Below, one piece after another: positions 3,815 to 20,516 of a DNA stretch of 42,043 nucleotides (the stretch's first letter is position 1; each line of letters begins with the position of its first letter). Location: the NCBI GenBank assembly GCA_017631955.1, contig JAGBSJ010000008.1, forward strand, positions 1-42,043. The letters are read 5' to 3'. The translations under genes and the position numbers were made by a program. Source of the DNA: Clostridia bacterium. GTDB taxonomy: Bacteria; Bacillota; Clostridia; Oscillospirales; Acutalibacteraceae. The notes under the pieces were generated by a model. That model worked only from the letters and a program-made list of their open reading frames with translations. It was not told where the DNA came from and did not search any database.

Positions 3815-4572
3815 TGGCATTACTTGAAGTAAAAAATCTTGGTATTGTTTTTGGTGGTCTTCACGCTGTTGAAGGGTTCAACCTTTCACTCGAAAAAGGT
3901 ATGCTTTATGGACTTATCGGTCCTAACGGTGCAGGTAAAACAACAGTTTTCAATCTCTTAACAGGTGTTTATAAACCAACAACTGGTACTTTCTCACTTG
4001 ATGGTGTTAAACTTACAGGCAAGAATCCTGTTGAAATCAGCAAATCAGGTATTGCACGTACATTCCAGAATATTCGACTTTTCAAGAATCTTTCTGTTCT
4101 TGATAATGTAAAACTTGGCCTTCACAATCAAGTGAAATACTCAACTGCAGAAGGTATTTTAAGACTTCCACGCTTTTTCAAGTCAGAAAAGAAAATGAAC
4201 GAAAAGGCAATGGATTTACTCAAAGTTTTTGGTCTTGAAAATGAGGCATCAACATTAGCAGATAACCTCCCTTATGGTAAACAGAGAAAACTTGAAATTG
4301 CTCGTGCTCTTGCTACAAATCCAAAGCTTTTGCTTCTTGATGAACCTGCAGCAGGTATGAACCCAAGTGAAACACAGGAGCTTATGGATACAATTCGTTT
4401 TGTTCGCGATAACTTTGATATGACAATTCTTCTTATTGAACATGATATGAAACTTGTCAGCGGTATTTGTGAAGAAGTTACAGTTCTTAACTTCGGCGAA
4501 GAACTCGCACAAGGCAAAACAAGCGAAGTACTTAATAATCCTGAAGTTATTAAGGCATATTTAGGCGACTAA
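3814..4572 (+). CDS. livG: Branched-chain amino acid ABC transporter ATP-binding protein LivG
   Basis: Cytoplasmic ATPase of 252 residues that powers the LivHM channel. Walker A is GPNGAGKT (residues 36-43), the Q-loop lies in TFQNIRLF, and Walker B is LLLLDEPAAGMN. The ABC signature position reads LPYGKQRKLEIARAL instead of LSGGQ, which is normal for LivG. The C-terminal LNFGEELAQGKTSEVLNNP is the BCA_ABC_TP_C extension that closes LivG proteins. The start overlaps the livM stop by one base and GGAGG precedes it. Confidence 0.94.
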   Translation: MALLEVKNLGIVFGGLHAVEGFNLSLEKGMLYGLIGPNGAGKTTVFNLLTGVYKPTTGTFSLDGVKLTGKNPVEISKSGIARTFQNIRLFKNLSVLDNVKLGLHNQVKYSTAEGILRLPRFFKSEKKMNEKAMDLLKVFGLENEASTLADNLPYGKQRKLEIARALATNPKLLLLDEPAAGMNPSETQELMDTIRFVRDNFDMTILLIEHDMKLVSGICEEVTVLNFGEELAQGKTSEVLNNPEVIKAYLGD

Positions 4573-4584
4573 GGAGGAAGAACA

Positions 4585-5298
4585 ATGGCACCACTTTTAC
4601 AAGTTGATAATATTGAAGTTTATTATGGCGTCATCAAAGCATTAAAAGGCATATCTTTTGAAGTAAACAAAGGTGAAATCGTTGCTCTTATCGGCGCCAA
4701 TGGAGCTGGTAAAACAACAATCCTCCACACAGTTACTGGTCTTTTAAAACCAAAGACAGGTAAAATTTCATTCAAAGGAAATGATATTACAAAAGTTCCT
4801 GCTCACAAAATTGTAACAATGGGTATGGCTCATGTTCCTGAAGGAAGAAGAATTTTCTCTCAGCTTTCAGTACTTGATAACATTAAATTAGGTGCTTTCA
4901 CACGTAAAGACAAAGAAGAAATCGAAGAAACACTCAACTATGTATACGAGCGTTTTCCTCGTCTTAAAGAAAGAAAGAATCAGATTGCGGGTACTCTTTC
5001 AGGTGGCGAACAACAAATGCTTGCTATGGGCAGAGCACTTATGTCAAAGCCGGAATTTGTTTTAATGGATGAACCTTCAATGGGACTTTCTCCCCTTCTT
5101 GTTTCTGAAATTTTTGAGATAATCAAAGCTATAAATGAAAACGGTACAACAGTTCTTCTTGTTGAACAGAATGCTAAAAAAGCACTTTCTATTGCAGACA
5201 GGGCTTATGTTCTTGAAACAGGTAATATTGTTCTTTCAGGTGATGCGAAGAACCTTATGAATGATGAATCTGTTAAAAAAGCATATCTTAGTGAATAA
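4585..5298 (+). CDS. livF: Branched-chain amino acid ABC transporter ATP-binding protein LivF
   Basis: Second ATPase of the complex, 237 residues. Walker A is GANGAGKT (37-44), the signature is LSGGEQQMLAMGRAL and Walker B is FVLMDEPSMGLSP; VPEGRRIFSQLSVLDNI is a LivF family marker. It starts 12 bases after livG behind AAGGAGG. With livJ, H, M and G it completes a five-gene transporter. Confidence 0.94.
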   Translation: MAPLLQVDNIEVYYGVIKALKGISFEVNKGEIVALIGANGAGKTTILHTVTGLLKPKTGKISFKGNDITKVPAHKIVTMGMAHVPEGRRIFSQLSVLDNIKLGAFTRKDKEEIEETLNYVYERFPRLKERKNQIAGTLSGGEQQMLAMGRALMSKPEFVLMDEPSMGLSPLLVSEIFEIIKAINENGTTVLLVEQNAKKALSIADRAYVLETGNIVLSGDAKNLMNDESVKKAYLSE

Positions 5299-5316
5299 TT
5301 TGTGGGAGGAATTATT

Positions 5317-5946
5317 ATGGATAAGAAAATCGTTATTACAATTGCCCGTGGATACGGTAGTGGTGGTAAAACTGTTGGTCAAATGCTTTCTAAAGAACTT
5401 GGTATCCCCTTCTATGACCGTCAGATTCTCTATATGGCATCTGATGACAGTGGTATCAACGTAGGACTTTTCCAGAAAAATGATGAAGACGTAAACAAAG
5501 GTTTGTTCGACCCATCAACTCATAAATATTTAGGTGGGATTATTCCTCCTGAAGATAGCAAATTCACATCAAAAGAAAATCTCTTCAACTATCAAGCAAA
5601 AATCATTAAAGACCTTGCAAATAAAGAGTCTTGTGTTATTGTTGGCCGTTGTGTTGACTTCATATTGAAAGATAATCCTAATGTAATTAAAGTTTTTATT
5701 TGGGCTCCGCATCAGTCATGTGTTGAAACAGTTATGGATATGTTTGATATGAACGAAAAGGAAGCAGACAAGAAAATTCGTAAAATCGATAGACACCGTA
5801 GCGAATACTACCGTTACTATACTTGTCGCGAATGGGACAACGCCCGCAACTATGACCTGTGTCTTAACAGTGCAGATTTGGGCTTTGATGGTTGTGTAAA
5901 AGCAATTAAAGCATATATTGATGTACTTAAAAGCGTAAAAGAATAA
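5317..5946 (+). CDS. Cytidylate kinase-like protein (Cytidylate_kin_2 family)
   Basis: A cytoplasmic P-loop protein of 209 residues. IARGYGSGGKTVGQMLSKEL near the N-terminus matches the 'REFGSGGREIG' signature of the cytidylate-kinase-like family (PF13189), with the nucleotide loop at residues 12-19. CVIVGRCVDFILKD and a later basic segment with repeated Arg (DRHRSEYYRYYTCREW) resemble the lid region of nucleoside monophosphate kinases. It is distinct from the true Cmk at 21157-21819, so it is probably not the housekeeping CMP kinase. The start at ATG 5317 is preferred over GTG 5302 because GGGAGGA (5304-5310) lies before it. It is last in the liv operon and ends at a strong terminator. Substrate unknown. 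Confidence 0.8.
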   Translation: MDKKIVITIARGYGSGGKTVGQMLSKELGIPFYDRQILYMASDDSGINVGLFQKNDEDVNKGLFDPSTHKYLGGIIPPEDSKFTSKENLFNYQAKIIKDLANKESCVIVGRCVDFILKDNPNVIKVFIWAPHQSCVETVMDMFDMNEKEADKKIRKIDRHRSEYYRYYTCREWDNARNYDLCLNSADLGFDGCVKAIKAYIDVLKSVKE

Positions 5947-5951
5947 TCACA

Positions 5952-5984
5952 AAAAGGGCTATCAATTGATAGTCCTTTTATTTT
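5952..5984 (+). terminator. Intrinsic terminator of the liv operon
   Basis: A near-perfect palindrome, AAAAGGGCTATCAA against TTGATAGTCCTTTT with one G-U pair, followed by ATTTT. It lies 5 bases after the kinase-like gene. Confidence 0.85.
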
Positions 5985-6079
5985 GCTCTATATTTAATTT
6001 ATAGTTAATTTGTGTAATTTCACATATTTAGCATTAAAAGCTCAAATAGAGCCATACAAAGCGAAATAGGCATAATAAA

Positions 6080-6111
6080 ACACCTTATCTTCTAAAGATA
6101 AGGTGTTTTTA
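6080..6111 (-). terminator. Bidirectional intrinsic terminator, mainly for nhaC
   Basis: ACACCTTATCTT (6080-6091), loop CTA, AAGATAAGGTGT (6095-6106), with T-runs on both strands. It stops minus-strand nhaC transcripts and backs up the liv terminator. The 90 bases between the two terminators hold nothing I recognise. Confidence 0.85.
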
Positions 6112-6125
6112 ATTATTAAATCAAA

Positions 6126-7757
6126 TTACGCCTTTTTCTTTGTGACTGCTTTAATAACAAGAAGAGCAGCAACAAGAAGAACAATTGATACAGGAAGTAC
6201 TACAAATGCATTTGGAACAAAACCTGCAAGCAAATAACCAACAAAAGAAACTGCTGCAACTGTCATTGCATAAGGCAACTGTGTTGAAACGTGGTTAACG
6301 TGGTCACACTGACCGCCTGTTGACGCCATAATTGTTGTATCTGAAATTGGTGAGCAGTGGTCGCCACAAACTGCACCTGCAAGACAAGCTGCAATACAAA
6401 CGATAAGAGATGGGTCTGTTGTTGCGAAAAGAGGAACAATAATTGGAATAAGAATACCAAAAGTACCCCAAGATGTACCTGTAGCAAATGCAAGTAATAA
6501 ACCAACAAGGAAAAGAATTGCAGGTAAGAAATATGTAAGTTTACCAGCAGTTGCATCAACAAGTCCTTCAACAAATACATCTGCACCAAGGTTATTTGTC
6601 ATAGCGCTAAGTGTCCATGCAAATGTGAGGATGAGAATTGCAGGAACCATTGCCTTAAATCCTTCAGGAATTGCTTCCATACAATCTTTGAATGAAAGCA
6701 CTCTTCTAATCATAAAGTATGCAATATTAACTACAAGGGCAATAATTGAACCAAGAGCAAGACCATAAGCTGCATCACAGTTTGCGAATGCATTAATAAA
6801 GCTTTCTCCTGAGAAGAATCCTCCAGTATAAACCATACCAACAATGCAAAGAGCAATAAGAATTACAACAGGAAGAATAAGGTCAATAACCTTACCTTTT
6901 GTTGAAACAGGAGTTTCATCAACATTTGCATAAGGTCTTGCATCTGTTGTATAAAGGTCACCGTTCATAGCATTAATTTCGTGCTTTTTCATTGGACCAA
7001 AGTCAATATTAAGAGCAGAAATCATAACAACCATAATAATTGTCAGTAATGCATAAAGGTTAAATGGAATAGTCTTAATGAAAAGTTCAAGACCGTCAGT
7101 ACCTTCAACAACACCACTAACAGCTGCTGCCCAAGAAGAAATTGGAGCAATAATACAAATTGGTGCTGCAGTAGCGTCAATAATGTAAGAAAGTTTTGCA
7201 CGTGAAATCTTGTGTGAATCTGTTACAGGACGCATAACGCTACCAACTGTAAGACAGTTAAAGTAGTCGTCAACGAAAATTAATGCACCAAGACCAAAAG
7301 TAGCAAGCATTGCACCTTTTCTTGATTTAATCTTTTTCTTTGCCCATTCACCATAAGCACGGCTACCACCTGCTTTGTTCATAAGAACAACAATAACACC
7401 AAGAACAACAAGGAAAATGATAATACCCATATTCCAAGTATCAGCAAGTTTACCGATAAATCCGTCAGTCATAATTGTGTTGAACATTGTTTCAATACTG
7501 AATCCGTCAGGACCAACAGCATAAAGTCCACCACCAACTAAAATACCAACGAAAAGTGATGAATAAACTTCTTTAGTGATAAGAGCCAACGCGATAGCAA
7601 TTACCGGTGGAAGAAGTGAGAGTGCTGTAGAATAAAATCTGCTTGAATACTCTACTTCAGCTCCATCTTCTGCAAATGCAACTACTGACATTGTCATAAG
7701 AAGCATAAAAGCAATTGCAAGCACAGCCAAAGTTTTAACACTGAATTTGCCTTTCAT
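6126..7757 (-). CDS. nhaC: NhaC-family Na+/H+ antiporter
   Basis: A polytopic membrane protein of 543 residues (Na_H_antiporter family, PF03553) that would exchange Na+ for protons or a related cation/organic-acid pair. It has about a dozen hydrophobic spans, the acidic FVDDYFNCLTVGSVMRPVTD segment and TGTSWGTFGILIPI, then CGDHCSPISDTTIMASTG, all markers of the NhaC/YuiF group. Residues 1-29 look like a cleavable signal peptide (ending VVAFA-ED), which NhaC proteins usually lack, so this is an N-terminal addition. The start ATG 7757 has AAAAGGAG upstream; an in-frame extension to 7835 has no binding site and would overrun the promoter. It stands alone between its promoter and a terminator. 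The Na+-pumping decarboxylase at 38309-41937 is a logical partner. Confidence 0.88.
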   Translation of the reverse strand: MKGKFSVKTLAVLAIAFMLLMTMSVVAFAEDGAEVEYSSRFYSTALSLLPPVIAIALALITKEVYSSLFVGILVGGGLYAVGPDGFSIETMFNTIMTDGFIGKLADTWNMGIIIFLVVLGVIVVLMNKAGGSRAYGEWAKKKIKSRKGAMLATFGLGALIFVDDYFNCLTVGSVMRPVTDSHKISRAKLSYIIDATAAPICIIAPISSWAAAVSGVVEGTDGLELFIKTIPFNLYALLTIIMVVMISALNIDFGPMKKHEINAMNGDLYTTDARPYANVDETPVSTKGKVIDLILPVVILIALCIVGMVYTGGFFSGESFINAFANCDAAYGLALGSIIALVVNIAYFMIRRVLSFKDCMEAIPEGFKAMVPAILILTFAWTLSAMTNNLGADVFVEGLVDATAGKLTYFLPAILFLVGLLLAFATGTSWGTFGILIPIIVPLFATTDPSLIVCIAACLAGAVCGDHCSPISDTTIMASTGGQCDHVNHVSTQLPYAMTVAAVSFVGYLLAGFVPNAFVVLPVSIVLLVAALLVIKAVTKKKA

Positions 7758-7825
7758 TTTTACATCTCCTTTTAGTATATTATGCTTACATAAAATGCTT
7801 GCAAAATATACAATATATCCGATAA

Positions 7826-7854
7826 AATATAACATATTTTAAGAAATTTGTCAA
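7826..7854 (-). promoter_or_regulatory. nhaC promoter
   Basis: On the minus strand TTGACA (7854-7849), 17 bases, TATATT (7831-7826). The leader is about 60 bases long. Confidence 0.8.
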
Positions 7855-7892
7855 TGTAAATCACAAAAAGAAGAGGATTACAATAAATAATA

Positions 7893-7921
7893 TATACATA
7901 TTTTACTTTTTGTGGTATAAT
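7893..7921 (+). promoter_or_regulatory. Promoter of the flavin reductase-rubredoxin gene
   Basis: Extended -10 TGGTATAAT (-10 at 7916-7921) with a weak -35 TATACA (7893-7898) at 17 bases. The start codon is 22 bases downstream with GGAGATG before it. Confidence 0.7.
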
Positions 7922-7943
7922 ATAGAAAAATGGAGATGATTAA

Positions 7944-8552
7944 ATGATACGAAATGAAGCAATGTTCAAATTAAGTTATGGCCTTTTCATTTTAAGTGCG
8001 CGTGAAAATGACAAAGATAACGCTTGCATTATAAACACCGCTTGTCAGGTTACTGATAATCCTAAAAAGATTACTATAGCAGTCAATAAGGGAAATCTTA
8101 CTTGTGAAATGATTGAAAAAACAAAATTATTTACAATTTCTGTACTTTCAACCGAGGCAACATTTGATTTAATAAAAAGATTCGGTTTTGCAAGTGGTCG
8201 TGATATTGATAAATTTGCAGATTTTAATGCCAATTACAGAACAGAAAATGGCACATACTTTATCTGTGAAGGAACAAATGCATATATTTCTTGTACCGTT
8301 ACAGACATTGTTGATTGTGGCACTCACCTTTTATTTATTGCAGATGTTACTGAAGCGGAAACATTATCCGACGAACCATCTGCAACTTATCAATACTATT
8401 TTGACCATATCAAGCCAAAACCTGAAACTAAAAAGAAAAAAGGATATATTTGTAAAATCTGTGGTTATGTATATGATGGCGATGAATTACCTGAAAATTA
8501 CATTTGCCCGATTTGTAAACACGGCGCAGAAGATTTTGAGCCATTAGAATAA
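7944..8552 (+). CDS. Flavin reductase domain-rubredoxin fusion (high-molecular-weight rubredoxin)
   Basis: A cytoplasmic redox protein of 202 residues. Residues 1-155 form an FMN-binding split-barrel flavin reductase-like domain. After a Lys-rich linker (161-166), residues 167-202 are a short rubredoxin with iron ligands C170, C173, C188 and C191 in CKICGYVYDG and CPICKHG. This order matches the Hrb proteins of acetogens and other anaerobes, which pass electrons from NAD(P)H or a partner reductase to flavodiiron proteins that reduce O2 or NO. The partner gene is not in the window. It has its own promoter and terminator. Confidence 0.9.
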   Translation: MIRNEAMFKLSYGLFILSARENDKDNACIINTACQVTDNPKKITIAVNKGNLTCEMIEKTKLFTISVLSTEATFDLIKRFGFASGRDIDKFADFNANYRTENGTYFICEGTNAYISCTVTDIVDCGTHLLFIADVTEAETLSDEPSATYQYYFDHIKPKPETKKKKGYICKICGYVYDGDELPENYICPICKHGAEDFEPLE

Positions 8553-8559
8553 AAAGTTA

Positions 8560-8595
8560 AAGCGTAACAACCCTCAAAGGTTGTTACGCTTTTTT
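8560..8595 (+). terminator. Terminator between convergent genes
   Basis: A 13-bp perfect stem, AAGCGTAACAACC (8560-8572) and GGTTGTTACGCTT (8579-8591), with a 6-base loop and a following T-run. It ends the rubredoxin transcript and probably also the opposite one, whose last small gene stops inside the loop. Confidence 0.9.
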
Positions 8596-8690
8596 AATAA
8601 ACTAATTTGATTTTCTGTGAGATAACCTTTTGAAATCATCATTTTGATAATTTCTATTTTCTCCTCATTTGTTATGTATTTCTTCTGCAT
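8574..8690 (-). CDS. Small protein of 38 residues, SHOCT-like
   Basis: A short frame starting at ATG 8690 (GGTGAT upstream, the ribosome binding sequence also used by several neighbours) and stopping at TGA inside the loop of the shared terminator. The peptide is MQKKYITNEEKIEIIKMMIS followed by KGYLTENQISLLKKRNNL. The pattern 'charged helix, KGYLTE, second helix' resembles the short oligomerising SHOCT module (typically '...G.ITEEEF..kK'), but this is a weak match. It lies 40 bases after a zinc-ribbon gene in the same direction. It could be a non-coding tail of that transcript. Confidence 0.4.
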   Translation of the reverse strand: MQKKYITNEEKIEIIKMMISKGYLTENQISLLKKRNNL

Positions 8691-8730
8691 AATTATCACC
8701 ATTAAATGATATGCAGAAAGACAGAGATTA

Positions 8731-8922
8731 TTACTTAAGCACCTCAGTTTTTTCAACTCGACTATAAATAATACTTGAACATTCTTTACATATTGTGTGT
8801 TCAACAACAGTAGCAAAAGATTTTATTTTGTCGCGATAAACAGCTCCGTCGTTAATTTGGTAGCCCTTTGTTAAATCTTTTGAGCCGCAATATGGACATT
8901 CTTCAATAATAATATTTTTCAT
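8731..8922 (-). CDS. Small zinc-ribbon protein
   Basis: A 63-residue protein with two Cys pairs, CPYCGS near residue 9 and CKEC near residue 48, expected to hold one zinc ion as a ribbon. Nothing else identifies a role; such proteins are often nucleic-acid- or protein-binding accessories. It starts 6 bases after the cohesin gene with AGAGGT upstream, so it is translated from the same message. The two genes' jobs need not be related. Confidence 0.65.
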   Translation of the reverse strand: MKNIIIEECPYCGSKDLTKGYQINDGAVYRDKIKSFATVVEHTICKECSSIIYSRVEKTEVLK

Positions 8923-8928
8923 AACAAA

Positions 8929-9639
8929 TTACCTCTTTTTCTTGCTTATAATTAAATAAATAATAGCTCCAATAATAAGCACAGCACCCGCAATCATTAC
9001 ACCAATTACGATTTTAATATTATCGGTATCATTATTATTTTCATTATTTTGATTATTTTCAGTTGTGCTTTCTGTTGTAGTGTTACTCTCTTGCTCAGGA
9101 TTTAAAGTGGTTGAATCATTTATTGTTGATTCTGTAGTTGATTCGTTATTAACAAATGTATTATTTATAATCTTAACTGTTGAATTTTTAACTGAATAAG
9201 GTATCTTTTCAAGATTTTCACTTACAAAATCCCCTGCACTTGGAATTATAAGTTTAACATCACTTTCCCCCTCAGCGTTTTCAAGTGCTTTGAATTTAAC
9301 AGTAAACAAAGCACCTTCAGATGTCACAGAAACATTTGGTGACATATAAGTGAATCGTACTTTATTAGATGCATTTTTTATACTTACCATTGCACCATCA
9401 TCAATAATTGCGCCTTTTTCACCTGACACAAATTCAAGTTGTGATGCATCAAATTCCAAATCAATTACTGCGCCGCTTAATTTTGAATTATCACTGATAA
9501 AAACTTTTAATTCAAATTCGTCGCCTGCATACACAGTTGTATCTATAAGCTTTAATTCAACCGACGACTTCGCATAAACAGGAAGCAATGCAAATAATAA
9601 TATTAAAAAAGTTAATAACACTGAAATTATTCTTTTCAT
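8929..9639 (-). CDS. Membrane-anchored single-cohesin surface protein
   Basis: 236 residues: signal peptide 1-23 (cut after VYA), a cohesin-type beta-sandwich at about 26-155 (VYAGDEFELKVFISDNSKLSGAVIDLEFD, then EGALFTVKFKALENAEGESDV), a Ser/Thr/Asn/Glu-rich linker at 156-207, a transmembrane helix at 208-231 and a KKKR cytoplasmic end. Cohesins bind dockerin-tagged proteins, so it may hold a dockerin enzyme at the cell surface; the family also includes non-cellulosomal domains. No dockerin is encoded in this window, and neither glycosidase here carries one. It heads a small operon with its own promoter and GGTGAT as binding site. Confidence 0.78.
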   Translation of the reverse strand: MKRIISVLLTFLILLFALLPVYAKSSVELKLIDTTVYAGDEFELKVFISDNSKLSGAVIDLEFDASQLEFVSGEKGAIIDDGAMVSIKNASNKVRFTYMSPNVSVTSEGALFTVKFKALENAEGESDVKLIIPSAGDFVSENLEKIPYSVKNSTVKIINNTFVNNESTTESTINDSTTLNPEQESNTTTESTTENNQNNENNNDTDNIKIVIGVMIAGAVLIIGAIIYLIISKKKR

Positions 9640-9655
9640 TTAAATCACCATAGAT

Positions 9656-9684
9656 ATAATACCACATTTCAGTTTGTAATACAA
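9656..9684 (-). promoter_or_regulatory. Promoter of the cohesin gene
   Basis: Minus strand TTGTAT (9684-9679), 17 bases, TATTAT (9661-9656). Confidence 0.65.
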
Positions 9685-9711
9685 GAAAAATCCTCCCTAT
9701 TGGGAGGATTT
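9683..9711 (-). terminator. Terminator of the amino acid ABC operon
   Basis: AAATCCTCCC (9688-9697), loop of 4, GGGAGGATTT (9702-9711). On the minus strand it follows the glnQ stop by one base and runs into a T-tract. It touches the -35 of the next promoter. Confidence 0.85.
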
Positions 9712-9712
9712 C

Positions 9713-10486
9713 TTAATCTTTTAATGAAGAACTTAAAAACTCTTTAAGACGTGGACTTTGTGGATTTTCAAATAAATCTGTTGGGTTACCTGTTTCTTCA
9801 ATAATTCCGTCTGCCATAAATATAACTTTATCAGAAACATTTTTGGCAAAATTCATTTCATGAGTAACAATAATCATAGTTGTATCGCCATCACGAAGTT
9901 CACGAATTACACGAAGAACTTCTCCGGTAAGTTCAGGGTCCAAAGCACTTGTCGGCTCATCAAAACAAAGAATTTTTGGCGAGAGCATTAAAGCACGTGC
10001 GATAGCAACACGTTGTTGCTGACCACCTGAAAGTTCACATGGATATGCATTGACTTTATCTTCAAGACCAACTCTTTTGAGAAGTTCAATAGCCCGATTA
10101 TCAATTTCTTTAAGCTTTTCTTTATTGTTCTTTTTAACATCTTCAAGAAGTTGAACTGCCAGTGTAAGATTTTTAAGAATACTGTATTGTGGGAAAAGAT
10201 TGAATGACTGAAATACGAGTCCAAAATTCAATCTTTTTTGACGAAGTTGTGAATCTTTCTGACTTGAATCAGTTGCAAAATCCACAAGTAAATCGTCATC
10301 AACAAAAATTTTACCTTGTTCCGCAGATTCAAGGAAATTTAAGCATCTAAGCAATGTAGTTTTACCGCTACCAGATGAACCGATAATTGATAATACTTCC
10401 CCTTTTTCCAATGTAAAACTGATATCTTTTAAAACTTCGATATTACCGAAGCTCTTTTTTATATTTTCTACTTTTAATATAGACAT
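9713..10486 (-). CDS. glnQ: Polar amino acid ABC transporter ATP-binding protein
   Basis: A 257-residue ATPase of the HisP/GlnQ type. Walker A is GSSGSGKT (36-43), the signature is LSGGQQQRVAIARAL, Walker B is ILCFDEPTSALDPE, and the switch histidine lies in IIVTHEMNFA. Residues ~100-130 carry a Lys-rich insertion compared with typical GlnQ. It is third in the operon, after the binding protein and the permease, with a 5-base gap, and ends at a terminator. Substrate cannot be told from the ATPase; glutamine, cystine or a basic amino acid are all possible. Confidence 0.92.
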   Translation of the reverse strand: MSILKVENIKKSFGNIEVLKDISFTLEKGEVLSIIGSSGSGKTTLLRCLNFLESAEQGKIFVDDDLLVDFATDSSQKDSQLRQKRLNFGLVFQSFNLFPQYSILKNLTLAVQLLEDVKKNNKEKLKEIDNRAIELLKRVGLEDKVNAYPCELSGGQQQRVAIARALMLSPKILCFDEPTSALDPELTGEVLRVIRELRDGDTTMIIVTHEMNFAKNVSDKVIFMADGIIEETGNPTDLFENPQSPRLKEFLSSSLKD

Positions 10487-10491
10487 TTTAA

Positions 10492-11136
10492 TTAACTCCG
10501 ATAATAATCAAATTTCTTTTCAATATAACTGAACAACAGTGTAAGAATACCACAGAATGCAAGGAAGAATAATGCTGTATAGAACAACGGCCAGATAATA
10601 CCTTTACTTGTAAAGTCTGTGGCTTGCATAAGAATTTCAGAAACTGCAATTACGCGAGCCAAAGATGTGTCTTTAACAAGAGTAATAATCTCATTACTCA
10701 TAGGTGGAATAATGCGCTTAACAACCTGCATTAATACAACTTTGAAGAAAATCTGAGATTTGGTCATACCAAGCACTTGACCTGCTTCATACTGACCTTT
10801 TGGAATGCTTTCAATTCCACCTCTGTATATTTCTGAGAAATATGCGGCATAGTTAATAACAAATGCGATAAGTGCTGCGGTCATACGTGATTTCATTGGT
10901 GTACCGAACACTAGCCCAGGAACGTAAAAGACCACAAAAAGCTGGAGCATCAGAGGCGTACCTCTGATGACCCAGACAAATGCTTTTGTTATGAACTTTA
11001 TAATTTTAATTTTTGACATAGAGCCCATAGAAATAACTAATCCTAAAGGCAATGAAAAAAGTAATGTAGCACCGAACAGATAACAGTTTTGTAAAAAACC
11101 TTCTAATAATTCAATGCTTACCTGAACAAAAGACAT
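10492..11136 (-). CDS. Polar amino acid ABC transporter permease (HisM/GlnP type)
   Basis: A 214-residue membrane protein with about five spans. The IRGTPLMLQLF motif and the EAA loop YEAGQVLGMTKSQIFFKV, which contacts the ATPase, are the family signatures. Only one permease is present, so the channel is probably a homodimer. It lies 18 bases after the binding-protein gene and 5 before glnQ. Confidence 0.92.
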   Translation of the reverse strand: MSFVQVSIELLEGFLQNCYLFGATLLFSLPLGLVISMGSMSKIKIIKFITKAFVWVIRGTPLMLQLFVVFYVPGLVFGTPMKSRMTAALIAFVINYAAYFSEIYRGGIESIPKGQYEAGQVLGMTKSQIFFKVVLMQVVKRIIPPMSNEIITLVKDTSLARVIAVSEILMQATDFTSKGIIWPLFYTALFFLAFCGILTLLFSYIEKKFDYYRS

Positions 11137-11154
11137 TAAATTAACTCCTAATTA

Positions 11155-11949
11155 TTAGTCAGCTTTTACAACAACTGCCTGTTTATTCTGCATATAAGGG
11201 ATTGTAACCTGCATATTTTCTGCTCTTTCAGGAGTGATTGTCATACCATTCCAGATACAGTCAATATTTTTACTTGCAAGTTCTGTTTCTTTTGAGTTCC
11301 AATCGATAACCTGGAATTTAACTTCAAGACCAAGTTTAGCAGCAACCGCTTTTGCAAATTCTGTTTCGAAACCAATAAGTTCGCCATTATCGTCATTATA
11401 GTTCATTGGTGCGAAAAGAGTGATACCAACAACAAGAGTACCCTTGTTCTTAATGTATTCCCAGTCAGATTCAGCAGCTTCTACTTGCTTGTATGTACCA
11501 TCACCAAGGAGAAGGTCCTGAAGCTTGTATTTTGCAGCGATAGTATTAAGAGTGCCATCTGCTTTAAGTTCATTGATTGCTTTGTTTACATAGTTAACAG
11601 CATCTGAACCCTTTCTAAATGCGATACCGTATTCTTCAGGTGCGAATGATGCATCTTCAACGAGCTTAAGGTTAGCAAAGTCTGTACCTTCGCCGATTGA
11701 GCCAATTGACATAACGTAGTCAATAACTGCCATGTCTGCTGTACCTGCTGCAACTTCCATAAGTGCTTTTGCCTGAGTATCAACAGGTGTTTTTGTGAAG
11801 TCTGCAAAATAGTTGTCACTATTCATAACTTCTTCGCCCGCAGAACCAGCTTCAGCAACAACGATTTGTGCTGTGTCGCCACAACCTGCAAAGCAAACTG
11901 CCATCATAAGTACTGCCATAAGGACAGCAAGTATTTTTTTCATTTTCAT
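11155..11949 (-). CDS. Amino acid ABC transporter substrate-binding lipoprotein with circularly permuted lobes
   Basis: 264 residues with a lipoprotein signal (CFAGC, lipidated C23), in first position of a binding protein-permease-ATPase operon, so its role as extracellular amino acid receptor is clear. The order of its halves is not normal. Residues 28-147 read as the usual second half of an SBP_bac_3 protein (IVVAEAGSAGEEVM, GTADMAVIDYVMS, EEYGIAFRKGSDAVNYVNKA, ELKADGTLNTIAAKY). Residues 163-264 read as the usual first half (WEYIKNKGTLVVGITLFAPM, GELIGFETEFAKAVAAKLG, GMTITPERAENMQVTIPY, ending QAVVVKAD). Expected ligand contacts are both present: R242 in TPER and D77 in the second-lobe motif. 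The short crossover containing 'LKGK' is missing, exactly where the new ends lie. Normal total length argues against a broken gene. ATG 11949 has AGGAG 9 bases upstream. Confidence 0.88.
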   Translation of the reverse strand: MKMKKILAVLMAVLMMAVCFAGCGDTAQIVVAEAGSAGEEVMNSDNYFADFTKTPVDTQAKALMEVAAGTADMAVIDYVMSIGSIGEGTDFANLKLVEDASFAPEEYGIAFRKGSDAVNYVNKAINELKADGTLNTIAAKYKLQDLLLGDGTYKQVEAAESDWEYIKNKGTLVVGITLFAPMNYNDDNGELIGFETEFAKAVAAKLGLEVKFQVIDWNSKETELASKNIDCIWNGMTITPERAENMQVTIPYMQNKQAVVVKAD

Positions 11950-11993
11950 AATTTTTAACTCCTTTTAGCGTGTTAAAGTGATAATATGCTAAT

Positions 11994-12022
11994 ATAATAC
12001 ATTAATAAAATTGTTTTGTCAA
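11994..12022 (-). promoter_or_regulatory. Promoter of the amino acid ABC operon
   Basis: Minus strand TTGACA (12022-12017), 17 bases, TATTAT (11999-11994). The -35 overlaps the TGA stop codon of the upstream gene (12019-12021). Confidence 0.8.
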
Positions 12023-12552
12023 CTAAAATTAATATCAGAAATTAAATTTTTGAAAAGAATTTCTGCTTTTTCACATTCTTTTTCAGTTTCTTTAGATTTT
12101 TTGAACACAAGTGCAACAGATGCAACTATAATTGCGCCAAGAACTCCTGCAGAAACAATGCTCATAGCATTCAATTTATATAAATACAAAAGATAAGCTA
12201 GTATTGCAAAAACCGCTATTACATACGTTAATCTTATCAACGGGTCATAAAGTTTATCATAAACCATAACATATTCAATAAACGAACCATTTTCATCACT
12301 ACCAACGTCAACAAGGTAGTGATATCTGTCAAAAGTCATTGGTTGAAGTTGTTTATTACGGGTATATATGTATTTAACCTTATACATTTTATCAAGTTTA
12401 TAGAATTTACCAAAAACACCAGTCATATCATCTTCTGCTGTAGGTGTTTTGAATGCAGCATTTAATTTTTCACGGATTTTAAGTGTAGTTGCATCAATAT
12501 AAATCTTTTTCACTTCGCTTAATTGTTTGTAATGCAATTTATTTATTATCAT
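12019..12552 (-). CDS. Conserved membrane protein of unknown function
   Basis: A 177-residue protein I do not recognise. Residues 1-105 are soluble and charged, with an N-terminal region rich in Lys and Tyr; two transmembrane helices follow at about 107-126 and 130-150, then a charged tail. Both ends are therefore probably cytoplasmic or the loop between helices is very short. The start at ATG 12552 is preferred (GGTGAT upstream); the open frame continues to 12597 into the promoter. It is a single-gene unit upstream of the amino acid transporter operon, but that operon has its own promoter. Confidence 0.7.
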   Translation of the reverse strand: MIINKLHYKQLSEVKKIYIDATTLKIREKLNAAFKTPTAEDDMTGVFGKFYKLDKMYKVKYIYTRNKQLQPMTFDRYHYLVDVGSDENGSFIEYVMVYDKLYDPLIRLTYVIAVFAILAYLLYLYKLNAMSIVSAGVLGAIIVASVALVFKKSKETEKECEKAEILFKNLISDINFS

Positions 12553-12568
12553 TTTAATCACCACAGTT

Positions 12569-12597
12569 ATTCTATAATAATTTCTTGCAAGTTTCAA
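12569..12597 (-). promoter_or_regulatory. Promoter of the 177-residue membrane protein gene
   Basis: Minus strand TTGAAA (12597-12592), 17 bases, TAGAAT (12574-12569). Confidence 0.6.
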
Positions 12598-12640
12598 GTT
12601 GATATGTTATATTTAATTTATTAAAATTTGAGGTGTAGAT

Positions 12641-13603
12641 GTGAAAAGTTTTACAATCAACAAAAACGACGCAGACCAGCGTCTTGACAAATTTATAAGC
12701 AAATCCGTACCACTACTTCCAAAAACACTTATGCACAAATACATAAGAATTAAAAGAATTAAGGTAAACGGCAAACGCGCTGAGATTTCAACTCGACTTA
12801 ATCTCGGTGATGTTGTTGAAATGTATATAAATGACGAATTCTTTGAAAAAGCACCTGAAAAATATGATTTTCTTAAAGCATCTAAAAATCTCAACATCAT
12901 TTATGAGGATGAAAACATTATTCTTTGTGATAAAAAGGTTGGTGTACTCTCCCACCCTGACGATAACGAATATATTGATACTCTAATTGGTAGAATCAAG
13001 CGTTATCTTTATGAAAAGGGCGAATACAAACCTGATGATGAGCATTCATTTGTGCCATCACTTGTAAACAGAATTGACAGAAATACAGGTGGCATTGTAA
13101 TTGCGGCAAAGAATGCAGAAGCACTTCGTATTCTTAACCAAAAAATGAAAGACCGTGAATTGCACAAATTTTACCTTTGCATAGTTCACGGCGAAATCAA
13201 GAAAAAAAGTGGACTTCTTGAGGGTTATCTTTTAAAAGATGAAAACAAAAATAAAGTTACTGTTTCTAAAAAGAAAATGGAAGATTCAAAAGAAATCCGC
13301 ACTAAATACAACGTAATTGATACTGATGAAGATTTATCGCTTGTTGAGGTTGAATTGCTCACAGGTCGCACACATCAAATCAGAGCACATTTTGCTTCAA
13401 TTGGGCATCCGTTACTTGGTGATGGGAAATATGGCACTAATGCTCAAAATAAGAAATACGGTTATAAAAAGCAATTCTTATATTCATATAAACTTGTGTT
13501 TGATTTTACAACAGATGCAGGAATACTTGAATACTTAAACCATAAAGAATTTGAAGTTGATGATGTTTGGTTTAAAAACGAGTTTTATAATAAGGGACTA
13601 TAA
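12641..13603 (+). CDS. RluA-family pseudouridine synthase
   Basis: Cytoplasmic RNA-modifying enzyme of 320 residues that converts uridine to pseudouridine in rRNA or tRNA. An S4 RNA-binding domain (about 12-75) precedes the catalytic domain. The active-site motif is NRIDRNTGG with the nucleophilic Asp at 146; RTHQIRAHFASIGHPLLGD is the second family signature. The start codon is GTG at 12641 behind GAGGTG; no in-frame ATG suits. RluC or RluD type is likely, but the target position cannot be read from the sequence. Confidence 0.9.
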   Translation: MKSFTINKNDADQRLDKFISKSVPLLPKTLMHKYIRIKRIKVNGKRAEISTRLNLGDVVEMYINDEFFEKAPEKYDFLKASKNLNIIYEDENIILCDKKVGVLSHPDDNEYIDTLIGRIKRYLYEKGEYKPDDEHSFVPSLVNRIDRNTGGIVIAAKNAEALRILNQKMKDRELHKFYLCIVHGEIKKKSGLLEGYLLKDENKNKVTVSKKKMEDSKEIRTKYNVIDTDEDLSLVEVELLTGRTHQIRAHFASIGHPLLGDGKYGTNAQNKKYGYKKQFLYSYKLVFDFTTDAGILEYLNHKEFEVDDVWFKNEFYNKGL

Positions 13604-13607
13604 AATC

Positions 13608-16265
<2,658 letters not shown>

Positions 16266-16287
16266 ACAACCACCCTGACCATTTTAT

Positions 16288-16316
16288 GCTATACATAAAA
16301 TAAATGTTTGTGTCAA
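16288..16316 (-). promoter_or_regulatory. Probable yunB-ligA promoter
   Basis: Minus strand TTGACA (16316-16311), 17 bases, TATAGC (16293-16288). The -35 is perfect and the -10 imperfect. Confidence 0.5.
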
Positions 16317-16339
16317 CAATAAATCACGGTGATTATATA

Positions 16340-16771
16340 ATGAATTTTGAAAAATATTTATTATTGTTTTGTTTAGGCGGTCTTGGATACGGACTCATTG
16401 AAATTTCATTCAGAGGATTCACACACTGGTCAATGATTATAACCGGTGGGTCTGCATTTTTATGCCTTTATATTATAAACAAGTCCTTTGAACACACTTC
16501 AATTTATATAAAAGCATTAATAGGTGCATTTATTATTACCACACTTGAATTAACGGTAGGTTTAGTTGTAAATAAAACATTTAACCTTGGAGTATGGGAT
16601 TATACAAATACACCCTTTAACTTTTTAGGAATAATTTCATTACCATTTTGTATTTGTTGGTATATGATTTCTTATATATCATTAAAAACTTTTAATATAT
16701 TAAATAGAATTATTGCGCAACTGAAACTCTATAGACCTTTACACCATGTGATGGGACTTCAGCAGAAATAG
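16340..16771 (+). CDS. Small membrane protein, putative ABC-transporter type IV family
   Basis: A 143-residue protein with four hydrophobic spans. The YLLLFCLGGLGYGLIEISFR opening, the central TTLELTVGLVVNKTFNLGVWDYTN and FNFLGIISLPFCICWY match the PF06541 family (CmpB-like, called putative ABC-transporter type IV). Function is not established. ATG 16340 has GGTGAT at 16328-16333. Its last ~20 codons run antisense into the 3' end of the GH27 gene (62 bp overlap, 16710-16771); that tail (LYRPLHHVMGLQQK) does not look like part of the family, so an earlier stop may have been lost. Confidence 0.75.
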   Translation: MNFEKYLLLFCLGGLGYGLIEISFRGFTHWSMIITGGSAFLCLYIINKSFEHTSIYIKALIGAFIITTLELTVGLVVNKTFNLGVWDYTNTPFNFLGIISLPFCICWYMISYISLKTFNILNRIIAQLKLYRPLHHVMGLQQK

Positions 16772-18437
16772 TATCAGTTACTACTGTTTCTGTTTTGTCC
16801 CACAAATCTTTACATAGATATTTTTCTGCTTTTGGTAATGTAACATTCACAATGTTATGTAAATTTGCTACAGAATAACTCATATTTGTTTTTGAAAGAC
16901 CTTTGTTAAAGAAACAGATTGCCACTTCATTGTTCTCAAGCGGTTTCACAAGCACATCTGTAATTCCGTTTGTTTTTACTCTTGAACACTGAATACCGAG
17001 TTTATCTTGGTCAACTGCAATAACATCTTTGTTTGTAAGAATTTCAAGAATTTTATTATCAGCATCAACTAAACCATCTTCCTTGATAAAATCACGAATA
17101 TCGTTACCAAGAATAAGTGGAGCAGCCATCATAGCCCACAAAGTAAAATGAGATTTATTTTCTTCAACAGTAAGTTTTCCGTTACCAACTTCAAGCATAT
17201 CAGGGTCATTAAAAGCACCAGGTTGAGCATATTTATCAAGACGTACATTTACTTCATAAATTCCAATAATAGACATCCAATTAGGTTGAATATCCCCAGT
17301 TGTTCGCCAGATATTACCTGCTTTTCCGCCCCATTTCCAAGGTTGATTCCAACCCCATTCGCAGATTGAATAAAGGATTTTCTTTTCTTCACAATTATTC
17401 TCTTCTGCAAATTTCTTTGTAGCACGAACAAGCTCTTTACCCATTTTTTCATACTGCATAGCAGCACTGTCCATAGGAGAACCTACAGGGTTTGTTATAA
17501 AAATTTTATTAGTACCAGCTTTAAGATTAACTTTAATCTGTCTTCTGCCTTCACGTGAAAATGCTTTTTGTTCTGCAATAAGAAAATCATACTTATCAGT
17601 ATCATTCACAGTTACAACGCAGAACTGACCATCACAAGTATTTTTCCTCATAACAAAAGTCAAAACATATTCACCATCAGTAGGAACAACAATATTATTG
17701 AACTCAATTGAGCCCATAGCACTACAGATACCTTTTACATAAGACTTACCATTTTCTTCGTTAATAACTTTTGCCTCGCCTTTAAGTATGGCATCTTTTG
17801 CTGGAAATATAAGTTCGCCGTCAATACCTTTGCCACCGATAGAAATACTATCAATATAAGGTGCGTCAGTAGGAATAAGCACATGATGACAGTAATCATA
17901 TTTGAAATACTCAACGCCCCATTCTGCAAAGGTTTCAGCGTCAATTCTTTCATTATACAGTGATGCGGGTAAATCCTCACAAGTAAGCGTACCGTTTGAT
18001 GAGTAAATACCAAGTTTAAGTCCCATAGCATTTACCTGTTCAACAAGCCATTTAATACCATGTGGGAATGTAGTTAAATCCCCTTGCATTTTTCCGTTTT
18101 CATCACGCATTGAAGACTGCCAACAGTCATCGAGGTTAATATAAACATAGCCCGCATCGGCAAGACCTGATTCTTTAACCGCTTTGGCAATTTGAAGAAT
18201 TACGTTTTCATCTATTTTATGTCTAAAACTATTCCAACTTGACCAACCCATTGGCGGTGTTAAAGCAGCACCATTATTATACATTTCATCCTTTGTATAA
18301 TGAATCTTTGTCTTTGCAAGTGCCTTTTTAACTTCACAACGCGGACAAATATCTTTTTTCTTGAAATACAGCAAGCTACTGCCGACTGCCGCGCTCGCTG
18401 CAGCTATTCCAGATAATACTGCTAATCCTTTTTTCAT
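16710..18437 (-). CDS. GH27 alpha-galactosidase with a beta-sandwich module inserted in the barrel
   Basis: A 575-residue glycosidase expected to remove terminal alpha-galactose. TPPMGWSSWNSF (60-71) and INLDDCWQ are GH27 signatures; the nucleophile is D181 (KYDYCH) and the acid/base D382 (TTGDIQPNW). Between barrel strands, about residues 195-325 form an extra domain (GEAKVINEENGKSYVKGI, GEYVLTFVMRKN, LKAGTNKIFITN) that reads like a CBM35/CBM6-type carbohydrate-binding fold. A C-terminal beta domain follows. The N-terminus has one hydrophobic helix (5-24) with Lys on both sides and a CPRC motif but no clear cleavage site, so anchoring is likely and sidedness uncertain. GAGGT precedes ATG 18437. 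It lies just past the ispH terminator with little room for a promoter. Confidence 0.88.
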   Translation of the reverse strand: MKKGLAVLSGIAAASAAVGSSLLYFKKKDICPRCEVKKALAKTKIHYTKDEMYNNGAALTPPMGWSSWNSFRHKIDENVILQIAKAVKESGLADAGYVYINLDDCWQSSMRDENGKMQGDLTTFPHGIKWLVEQVNAMGLKLGIYSSNGTLTCEDLPASLYNERIDAETFAEWGVEYFKYDYCHHVLIPTDAPYIDSISIGGKGIDGELIFPAKDAILKGEAKVINEENGKSYVKGICSAMGSIEFNNIVVPTDGEYVLTFVMRKNTCDGQFCVVTVNDTDKYDFLIAEQKAFSREGRRQIKVNLKAGTNKIFITNPVGSPMDSAAMQYEKMGKELVRATKKFAEENNCEEKKILYSICEWGWNQPWKWGGKAGNIWRTTGDIQPNWMSIIGIYEVNVRLDKYAQPGAFNDPDMLEVGNGKLTVEENKSHFTLWAMMAAPLILGNDIRDFIKEDGLVDADNKILEILTNKDVIAVDQDKLGIQCSRVKTNGITDVLVKPLENNEVAICFFNKGLSKTNMSYSVANLHNIVNVTLPKAEKYLCKDLWDKTETVVTDTISAEVPSHGVKVYRVSVAQ

Positions 18438-18452
18438 AACAATTACCTCATA

Positions 18453-18495
18453 AAAAACAGGTCAGATGATATTTTAGCATCATCTGACCCCTTTT
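18453..18495 (-). terminator. Bidirectional-looking terminator between ispH-S1 and the GH27 gene
   Basis: An 11-bp perfect stem, GGTCAGATGAT (18460-18470) and ATCATCTGACC (18479-18489), with an 8-base loop. On the minus strand it is followed by TGTTTTTT, ending the ispH operon. A short CGGC/GCCG hairpin (18498-18510) precedes it. Confidence 0.85.
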
Positions 18496-18515
18496 TACGG
18501 CCTAATGCCGATTTA

Positions 18516-20516
18516 TTATTCTTCAACTACTGCTTCTTCTGCAGCTGCTTCTACTACTTCTTCAACAGGAGCTTCTTCAACTACAGGTGGCTCAATAAGA
18601 GCTTTGATTGAAAGACTAACGCGTTTCTTATCAAAGTCGATTTCCATAATCTTTGCCTTAACAACATCGCCTACTTTAAGTACTTCTGCAGGAGTACCGA
18701 TGTGTTTATGTGAAATCTGTGAAATGTGAACAAGACCATCAATGCCAGGAATAATCTGTGCAAATGCGCCGAATGATGTGATACTTACAATCTTTGCATC
18801 AACTTCACTGTCAACAGGATAATCACGCTTAAGAATTTCCCATGGATTATCTTCAACTTTCTTATAACCAAGTGAAATCTTCTTGTTTTCTCTGTCAAGT
18901 TCTTTAACGTAAACTTCAACAGTATCGCCAACGCTTACAACCTCTGATGGGTGCTTAATTCTCTGCCATGAAAGTTCAGAGATATGTACCATACCGTCAA
19001 CACCACCAAGGTCAACGAATGCACCATAGTTTGTAAGACTTCTAACTGTGCCTGTGTAAACTGCACCTTCTGTGACATTTGCCCAGAATGCATCTTCAAC
19101 TTCTCTACGTTTTGAAGCAGCAACTTCACGGATTGAGCCAACTACTCTTCTCTTCTGCTTATTAACTTCAATAATCTTGTATTCAACTTCAGTCTTAACA
19201 AGGTCTTCAAGAGAATCATTTCTTCTCATCTTTGCAAGTGAAGCAGGAACAAATACTTTAATAGCACCGCTCTGTACAAATACACCTTTGTTGTCGCCAA
19301 CAATACCTGTAACAACGCCTGTGTGGATTGTGTCGTCTGCTTCAACGTTTTCCCAAACTGAATCACGGTCATAAAGACGTTTTGAAAGAATAATTGTACC
19401 TTCAACATCATTTGTCTTCATAATGCGAAGTTTGATTTCATCGCCAACTTTAAGCTCTGCTTTTGGGTCAGCTGATGGGTCATCACTATATTCATCAAAA
19501 GACACATAGCCAGTGTGCTTTCTGCCTGCGATTTCAACTTGAATTTCAGTTGCTGTAAAGCCAATAACTGTACCAACAACATTTTTATCAAAACTCATTG
19601 AGTTGAATGATTCTTCAAGCATCTGCTCAAAGCCGGTCTCCTCCATATTCATTGTGTTTGCGTTTTCAAATTTCTCGGACATAGTTCTTATTACCTCCTT
19701 AATTATACTGTCAGGTGTTGATGCACCGGCAGTAACGCCTATTGACTGAACATCACATAAAGCTATGTCCCGAAGCTCTTCTGCTGTTTCAATCAAATAA
19801 GTCGGGCAGTTGGGTTCACATACTGATTTTAATTTTGCAGTATTTGAACTTGTTCGACCACCAACAATTATCATAATATCATTTTCTTTTGATAATTTCA
19901 GCGCCTCTGCCTGTCTTTCTTCGGTCGCATTACATATTGTATCAAAAATTATTGCATTTGTATATAGTAATTTTACTTTTTTTACACATTTTTTCCATTC
20001 TTTTGTGCTAAAAGTTGTTTGAGAAACTACTAAAAAGGGGTTTTCTGTTGAAAAGCTGTTTTTTGCGAAAATTTCGTTCAATTCATCTTCTGAATTAAAC
20101 ACGAAACAATCACCATTACAATAACTTTTAATTCCGATTACTTCTGGATGGTTTTTATCACCAGCGATTAACACAGGCATATCAGAAGACGATTCTTTCT
20201 GAACAATTTTATGAATCTTTTTAACAAAAGGACAAGTTGCATCAATATAATCAAGAGAATTGTCGATACAATATTTTAGAATGTTTTGTTCAACGCCATG
20301 AGTACGTATAACAACTTTTTTATTGTTAACTGCATCACTTATATTGTTAATGATATTAACGCCTTTACTTTCTAAATCAGCAACAACCTGTGGATTATGA
20401 ATAATTGGACCAAGTGTGCAAACATTTACACCATCCGCAACCAAATCATAAAGCATATTGACTGCTCGATTGACACCAAAGCAAAATCCGGCAGTTTTAG
20501 CAAGAGTTATTTTCAT
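18516..20516 (-). CDS. ispH: 4-hydroxy-3-methylbut-2-enyl diphosphate reductase fused to ribosomal protein S1 domains
   Basis: A 666-residue fusion. Residues 1-~285 are IspH/LytB, the last MEP-pathway enzyme, which makes isopentenyl and dimethylallyl diphosphate using a 4Fe-4S cluster held by C12, C95 and C195; the AGFCFGVNRAV and YIDATCPFV motifs are intact. Residues ~310-640 hold four S1 RNA-binding repeats (the third, YTGTVRSLTNYGAFVDLGGV, is the most typical), and the tail is Glu/Ala/Val-rich. This fusion is a known Clostridia arrangement and usually supplies the only S1 protein. The start overlaps the plsC stop by 4 bases (ATGA). It is the last gene of the rpiR-cmk operon. Confidence 0.95.
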   Translation of the reverse strand: MKITLAKTAGFCFGVNRAVNMLYDLVADGVNVCTLGPIIHNPQVVADLESKGVNIINNISDAVNNKKVVIRTHGVEQNILKYCIDNSLDYIDATCPFVKKIHKIVQKESSSDMPVLIAGDKNHPEVIGIKSYCNGDCFVFNSEDELNEIFAKNSFSTENPFLVVSQTTFSTKEWKKCVKKVKLLYTNAIIFDTICNATEERQAEALKLSKENDIMIIVGGRTSSNTAKLKSVCEPNCPTYLIETAEELRDIALCDVQSIGVTAGASTPDSIIKEVIRTMSEKFENANTMNMEETGFEQMLEESFNSMSFDKNVVGTVIGFTATEIQVEIAGRKHTGYVSFDEYSDDPSADPKAELKVGDEIKLRIMKTNDVEGTIILSKRLYDRDSVWENVEADDTIHTGVVTGIVGDNKGVFVQSGAIKVFVPASLAKMRRNDSLEDLVKTEVEYKIIEVNKQKRRVVGSIREVAASKRREVEDAFWANVTEGAVYTGTVRSLTNYGAFVDLGGVDGMVHISELSWQRIKHPSEVVSVGDTVEVYVKELDRENKKISLGYKKVEDNPWEILKRDYPVDSEVDAKIVSITSFGAFAQIIPGIDGLVHISQISHKHIGTPAEVLKVGDVVKAKIMEIDFDKKRVSLSIKALIEPPVVEEAPVEEVVEAAAEEAVVEE

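Follow-up and report, generated by a model that had tools for sequence, protein, structure and literature searches.

In type II receptors the chain passes between two lobes through two hinge strands and has neighbouring ends. Circular permutation is generally regarded as something rare that happens once in the history of a protein family. A search of the literature, mostly open-access, found one natural permuted ABC receptor, TpMglB-2 (Tp0684) of Treponema pallidum, which is the nearest described case. It is described as a 'Type Ic' permuted glucose receptor with homologues in Gram-positive gut bacteria, and its authors raise membrane tethering as a possible reason for the permuted topology (PMC4990184). 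Two other kinds of system bear on the present case. Transporters of the GlnPQ type carry tandem receptor domains fused to the permease (PMC8025302), and work on circularly permuted receptors engineered for FRET sensors is cited in PMC7683729. The original prediction for the gene described below knew of no permuted receptor of the GlnH type, and none was found in the open literature; a permuted type I receptor, TpMglB-2, is on record.

The window analysed here is a stretch of 42,043 nucleotides from a Clostridia bacterium of the gut (GenBank assembly GCA_017631955.1, contig JAGBSJ010000008.1). The transporter operon and its promoter-like elements lie on the reverse strand. An ORF at 11155-11949, identified also by its profile matches, encodes a 264-residue SBP_bac_3 lipoprotein that is permuted, with the cut at hinge 1 (class A below). 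A lipoprotein signal peptide covers residues 1-22 (11884-11949), as judged from the invariance of Cys23 and from DNA conservation that runs up to the lipobox, and the codon of the lipobox Cys23 follows directly (11881-11883). The lobe-2 half, normally the second, here comes first (residues 28-147, 11509-11868; placed by alignment to PDB chains and to a doubled profile), and the lobe-1 half, normally the first, comes last (residues 162-264, 11158-11466; Pfam, PDB-chain and doubled-profile matches). A linker of 14 residues (148-161, 11467-11508; from profile and alignment) runs from the old C-terminus to the old N-terminus, in agreement with the roughly 15 residues that had been predicted. The match to PF00497 (SBP_bac_3) scores 116 bits against a gathering score of 26.4, and no sugar-receptor family appears among the Pfam matches at E-values up to 1. 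The ligand Arg, in the motif TITPER, and the lobe-2 Asp are both found in the protein. Across 26 aligned class A sequences, counting the window's, Cys23 and Asp77 never vary and conservation of Arg242 is 90% or more; the window protein is 58-81% identical to its 25 aligned relatives. Arg242 in lobe 1 and Asp77 in lobe 2 are presumably the ligand-contacting residues, one per half. Profiles did not assign a substrate, as the protein falls below every NCBIfam equivalog cut-off: in native order it scores 105.5 bits against 312 (FliY, PRK11260), 67.9 against 303 (GlnH) and 92.8 against 256 (Lys/Arg/Orn; LAO, TIGR01096), and with its halves swapped in silico it scores 99.4, 70.3 and 96.4 bits with the same models, still short of their cut-offs.

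Three kinds of alignment bear out the predicted reversal of the halves. In a phmmer search against PDB chains, residues 35-140 correspond to residues 125-229 of AncQR (4zv1) and residues 169-262 to its residues 9-103. The three best NCBIfam models, FliY, LAO and GlnH, each match the native-order protein in two stretches. A doubled profile made from 23 canonical relatives gives one continuous match of 348 bits, covering model positions 118-342 and protein residues 29-264, while the single profile finds two separate pieces of 165 and 184 bits in the same protein. Swapping the halves had been expected to give one full-length match, and it does so for AncQR (a single stretch, query 8-215 on chain 9-229) and for one stretch each of FliY (34-261 of 266), LAO (24-249 of 250) and GlnH (26-242 of 248). 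Total scores stay nearly constant on swapping (103.9 to 105.3 bits for AncQR, with the FliY and LAO totals as given above) because both halves already score in native order. Lobe 1 precedes lobe 2 only after the swap, and not in the native chain. These alignments establish the lobe order. The crossover that usually joins the halves ('..DLKGKK..') had been reported as absent, which is true of the window protein but does not extend to its relatives, which keep it at one of the new ends: L034 at the new N-terminus ('...ALKGKRVVAE') and L052 at the new C-terminus ('...GNEGKYSAK').

The operon is otherwise of the usual kind. Directly after the receptor gene come an amino-acid ABC permease of 214 residues (10492-11136; PF00528, 1.1e-19; TIGR01726 above its cut-off) and an amino-acid ABC ATPase of 257 residues (9713-10486; PF00005, 8.3e-36; best NCBIfam match TcyN/GlnQ, below cut-offs). 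Receptor and permease are separate ORFs with no fusion between them, and the receptor gene is the only receptor match beside this permease and ATPase. Upstream, a promoter-like -35 element TTGACA (12017-12022) and a -10 element TATTAT (11994-11999), spaced by 17 bp, were picked by eye and are invariant in six same-locus sequences, two of them permuted and four canonical. Length (264 residues), signal peptide with Cys23, ligand residues Arg242 and Asp77, and position beside permease and ATPase are all intact, as originally stated. As judged by profile and PDB-chain alignment, the gene is confirmed as encoding a circularly permuted SBP_bac_3 receptor in a normal operon.

Two neighbours of the operon may be recorded here. 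Directly downstream, 8929-9639 encodes a cohesin-domain protein (PF00963, 3.8e-15) in which we see, by eye, a linker rich in Ser, Thr and Asn and a C-terminal membrane-like stretch; the gene is retained at that place in G030, G020 and G021. Upstream, 12019-12597 encodes a 192-residue protein with no Pfam match at 1e-3, which occurs in seven of the 39 genomes of the genus, the window's included, and has the same position in each of five further genomes that were inspected.

Relatives of the receptor were listed at 80 loci, of which 34 are permuted, 45 canonical and one cut by a contig end; best-segment identities to the permuted loci range from 41 to 81%. The permuted loci lie on contigs of separate metagenome-assembled genomes (MAGs), many from the guts of goat, sheep, cattle, deer and water buffalo. 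An assembly chimera, with the halves joined in the wrong order by the assembler, might be suspected in a fragmented, 78%-complete assembly of 42 contigs; that explanation is next to negligible, with permuted genes at 34 of the 80 listed loci in many separate MAGs and with operon and flanking genes kept around the gene in G030. Misassembly, the outcome named beforehand as fatal to the proposal, is excluded by these independent assemblies. Purifying selection is evident in eight pairs of permuted genes, with dN/dS values of 0.05-0.14 (dS exceeds 1 in four of the eight). These values, the full length, the signal peptide and the 58-81% identity to 25 class A relatives make it very improbable that the gene is decaying, or is a functionless fragment of a tandem pair such as the tandem receptor genes of related operons (L062; L051, L053, L055) might suggest, and the gene is moreover the sole receptor match beside its permease and ATPase. 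On the strength of the permuted genes in separate MAGs and of purifying selection, three possibilities were rejected: misassembly, decay, and a gene that is split or partial. The earlier expectation that the receptor looks functional agrees with the intact operon and the selection on its sequence, which point to an apparently working gene. We regard it as highly probable that the window protein is a working, naturally permuted SBP_bac_3 receptor, similar to GlnH, HisJ and FliY, of an amino-acid ABC importer.

The same lobe order was sought in other genomes with two junction-spanning profiles, A1 and A2, run on samples of 295 order genomes and 299 phylum genomes, with further regions added, and candidates were classified with a doubled profile built from 41 non-redundant canonical relatives. 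This classification found 148 permuted ORFs, 122 canonical ORFs, 14 long fusions and two partial ORFs. Removing duplicates and open-ended ORFs and adding three single-receptor permease fusions left 131 distinct permuted SBP_bac_3 proteins, 128 of them free-standing. A conserved clade does exist, a point that had been suggested for checking. A lipobox pattern is present in 117 of the 131 permuted proteins and in 102 of 114 canonical ones. A separate permease gene begins within 400 bp after the permuted gene in 120 of 131 cases, and three of the remaining 11 are fused to the permease. A permuted receptor occurs in at least 72 of the 295 order genomes, counting the window's own: 64 have a free-standing one, and eight have one only in fused form, in the permuted register. 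For the phylum the minimum is 13 of 299 genomes (12 free-standing, one fused), a figure that leaves out the window's own genome although it belongs to the sample. These counts are lower bounds, as only junction-spanning matches that were examined further were classified; candidate loci that failed classification as permuted number four in the order sample and one in the phylum sample, and the fused counts (eight and one) include arrays with ambiguous lobe pairing. Within the window's genus, 19 of 39 genomes have a profile-confirmed permuted receptor, of class C in 18 and of class A from a second family in one (G004); the window-type gene is also present in three of the 19. The window's genome itself encodes, on another contig, a second permuted receptor with its own permease and ATPase (L119:4017-4883). 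It belongs to class C, and its cut falls before the last strand of lobe 2.

The 131 proteins fall into three cut classes: A at hinge 1 (72 proteins), B in an early lobe-2 loop (seven) and C in a late lobe-2 loop (52). We take class A to be cut in the first hinge strand, and B and C in loops between helix-strand units of lobe 2. On the doubled model, class A edges fall in the crossover from lobe 1 to lobe 2, with ends at 100-116 and starts at 102-118, except for three rows that start at 125-131. Class B ends at 132-133 and starts at 138-139. Class C mostly ends at 172-183 and starts at 167-185, with four exceptions, two rows that start early (148 and 153) and the alignments of L256 and L257, which end early (153 and 155). 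Among the permuted proteins no cut falls at model positions 61-99 in lobe 1, where the junction searches should have detected one, and none of the ORFs classed as canonical starts at 31-99. All three classes place the new N-terminus on lobe 2, and the lipid anchor is therefore on lobe 2 as well. From the lipobox to the first core strand, the median distance is 23 residues in canonical proteins (n=102), 15 in class A (n=66), nine in class B (n=7) and seven in class C (n=47); the sequences are related, so p values for these differences are not independent tests. One class C protein, L061:3728-4735, has no lipobox and starts, by eye, with a membrane-helix-like stretch and a long charged linker.

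Before the phylogenetic trees were built, open-ended, short and duplicate ORFs were removed, which left 131 permuted and 114 canonical sequences, and removal of near-identical rows left 114 rows; for single-origin tests on the wide set four more long or odd rows were dropped, leaving 110. Most of the trees were quick, with SH-aLRT support only, and the close-clade tree of permease plus ATPase was bootstrapped. The tree of rotated receptors (114 rows) has at least 16 changes between permuted and canonical; its second half has few canonical rows (3 of 57), since junctions were what the searches there were designed to find. With the 110 rows of the wide receptor set, placing all permuted sequences in one clade is rejected (p-AU 2e-70), as is one clade for class A (8e-58). 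The tree of the neighbouring permeases (quick, 168 rows), independent of the receptor sequence, has a minimum of 18 state changes, and branches whose SH-aLRT is 95 or more force nine of these. In the close clade, 70 of 74 rows entered the tree of permease plus ATPase, which has seven class-A changes (bootstrap range 6-8) and shows one class-A clade in 0% of 200 bootstrap trees. Recurrent switching of the lobe order, with three cut classes, is established by these comparisons.

How many of the changes were separate permutations is a different matter. A history of one old permutation, or of a few, in which later cases came from horizontal transfer or from recombination that replaced the mature receptor behind a resident signal peptide, would fit the close clade in part, where the rotated receptors (64 rows) have three class-A changes against seven on the permease-plus-ATPase tree, and where a single class-A clade is not rejected on the receptors (p-AU 0.06) but is rejected on the partner proteins (6e-5), six distant or long rows being left out of this comparison. 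Since a single class-A origin is not rejected on the close-clade receptors, some of the pattern may be due to the transfer of genes that had been permuted before. We nevertheless consider so few origins rather unlikely overall: three different cut classes need separate events, the wide set rejects a single origin both for all permuted receptors (2e-70) and for class A (8e-58), and class A members differ in whether the crossover lies at the new N-terminus or at the new C-terminus. A fair reading is that there were several permutation events together with exchange of permuted genes between operons.

Loci at which permuted and canonical receptors occupy the same place speak to both processes. At the locus of the window gene the receptor is permuted in G030 and canonical in G020, G021, G027 and G016, with the same neighbouring genes upstream; the downstream neighbours are also common to G030, G020, G021 and G016, and the contig of G027 stops. 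The promoter-like elements and the signal-peptide DNA are conserved across the six same-locus sequences, the canonical signal peptides being similar, and in the canonical same-locus genes of same-genus species this DNA conservation runs up to the lipobox. The permeases of the four canonical loci are only 54-60% identical to the window's, and the whole operon may therefore have been replaced there. In this synteny test, whole-operon replacement at the window locus is as likely as simple permutation in place.

A cleaner same-locus pair is G015 (permuted) and G031 (canonical), from two species of the same genus, which are syntenic over about 16 kb (3182-19485 of the G015 stretch) with 75-83% DNA identity in the blocks outside the receptor. 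The first 22 residues of the two receptors, to just past the lipobox Cys, are identical (MKKFLSILLAVVMIVCTFAACG); the upstream DNA match stops at precisely this point and starts again 45 bases into the permease gene. Between the two receptor genes, lobe matches lobe in swapped order, with a DNA identity of 69-70%. The ATPases of the pair are 94% identical, the permeases 75% and the receptors 55%, and this greater divergence of the receptor also fits replacement of the mature receptor. The G015 receptor is nearer to the permuted L052 (69%) than to its canonical G031 counterpart (55%), which speaks for few origins followed by exchange, and recombination with a permuted gene from elsewhere is possible for G015.

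Several relatives are fused or in tandem. L112 (620-4291) encodes 1223 residues comprising a signal peptide, four pairs of lobe 2 and lobe 1, and a permease; the same shifted register is seen with three pairs in L258 (713-3670) and with two in L116 (1561-3804), L218 and L259. In the permease-fused arrays of L112, L258 and L116 a lobe 2 comes first and a lobe 1 last, and which lobes pair is ambiguous. L260:1-3120, truncated by the region edge, joins a permease and an ABC ATPase to two pairs of lobe 2 and lobe 1 in one chain. A single receptor is fused to the permease in L210 and L228 (class A) and in L212 (class C). L248, L250 and L252 are canonical two-receptor fusions, and L221 looks alike by receptor profile. 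L062 has three canonical receptor genes in tandem, and in L051, L053 and L055 a receptor gene of normal lobe order lies directly upstream of the permuted one, before one permease.

Such arrays bear on how the permuted chain folds. The ambiguity of pairing in arrays of the same shifted register, such as the four pairs before one permease in L112, would suit a domain-swapped dimer, in which lobes pair between two molecules and the unit is a dimer of half-receptors; we think this improbable for the window protein, whose short linker joins old ends that lie close together in this fold, so that closure within one molecule is simpler. The chain would instead fold into the usual two-lobed clamp within a single molecule, with the linker bridging the neighbouring old ends. 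Ligand would close the lobes, and the closed receptor would dock on and feed the permease, which is probably a homodimer. With the cut at hinge 1, a single covalent strand should connect the lobes; the cut also puts the lipid anchor on lobe 2 rather than lobe 1, and may change the orientation of the receptor on the membrane and, as originally suggested, its docking on the permease. The permuted gene probably arose when an in-frame tandem duplication lost its outer halves while the signal peptide in front was kept, and permuted forms then probably spread in part by recombination between operons. Such a path of duplication, fusion and outer-half loss could plausibly have passed through tandem and fused arrays of the kind just described.

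A broader reading, which we put forward tentatively as possible and short of probable, joins these points. Lobe order would be evolutionarily switchable, and amino-acid ABC operons of this order of Clostridia would many times have exchanged one form of receptor, canonical or permuted, for the other, in place, with promoter and signal peptide kept and with only three cut regions tolerated. The switch would be selected because it puts the anchor on lobe 2 instead of lobe 1 and shortens the tether (median 15 residues in class A and 7 in class C against 23 in canonical proteins), altering how the receptor sits on the permease, and a one-lobe register shift in tandem-receptor transporters would do likewise to the whole array.

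As the change recurs in relatives at few places, nature seems to have re-wired a well-studied fold several times. One of the best-studied folds is permuted repeatedly in bacterial operons, beside unpermuted same-locus counterparts that are natural controls, and these controls make the idea raised for TpMglB-2, that membrane tethering favours permutation, directly testable. The cut sites offer naturally tested permutation sites for receptor-based biosensors. The case is also a warning that annotation by domain match hides permuted proteins.

Comparison with known systems sets the extent of what is new. The literature searched, mostly open-access, yielded no account of natural permutation in an SBP_bac_3 receptor, of three cut classes or of repeated switching; the novelty lies in these three points, a permuted ABC receptor as such being already known. 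With the SBP_bac_3 receptors (PF00497: FliY, GlnH, HisJ/ArgT and AncQR, 4zv1) the window protein shares both lobes, the presumed ligand motifs and an operon with permease and ATPase; it differs from them in its reversed lobes, in the linker that joins the old ends and in new ends at hinge 1. GlnPQ-type transporters resemble the relatives L112, L116, L258 and others in having several receptor domains fused to a permease (PMC8025302), whereas those relatives run lobe 2 first, with lobe 1 before the permease, and the window gene is free-standing with one domain. The permutants in FRET sensors, as cited in PMC7683729, are man-made, whereas the present cases are natural genes in operons. TpMglB-2 is, like the window protein, a natural, circularly permuted, membrane-tethered receptor of an ABC importer; unlike it, TpMglB-2 has a type I sugar-receptor fold in which N-lobe strands have moved towards the C-terminus and a fourth crossover has been added, with one described class (PMC4990184). 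The present cases are SBP_bac_3 amino-acid receptors with three cut classes and repeated switching.
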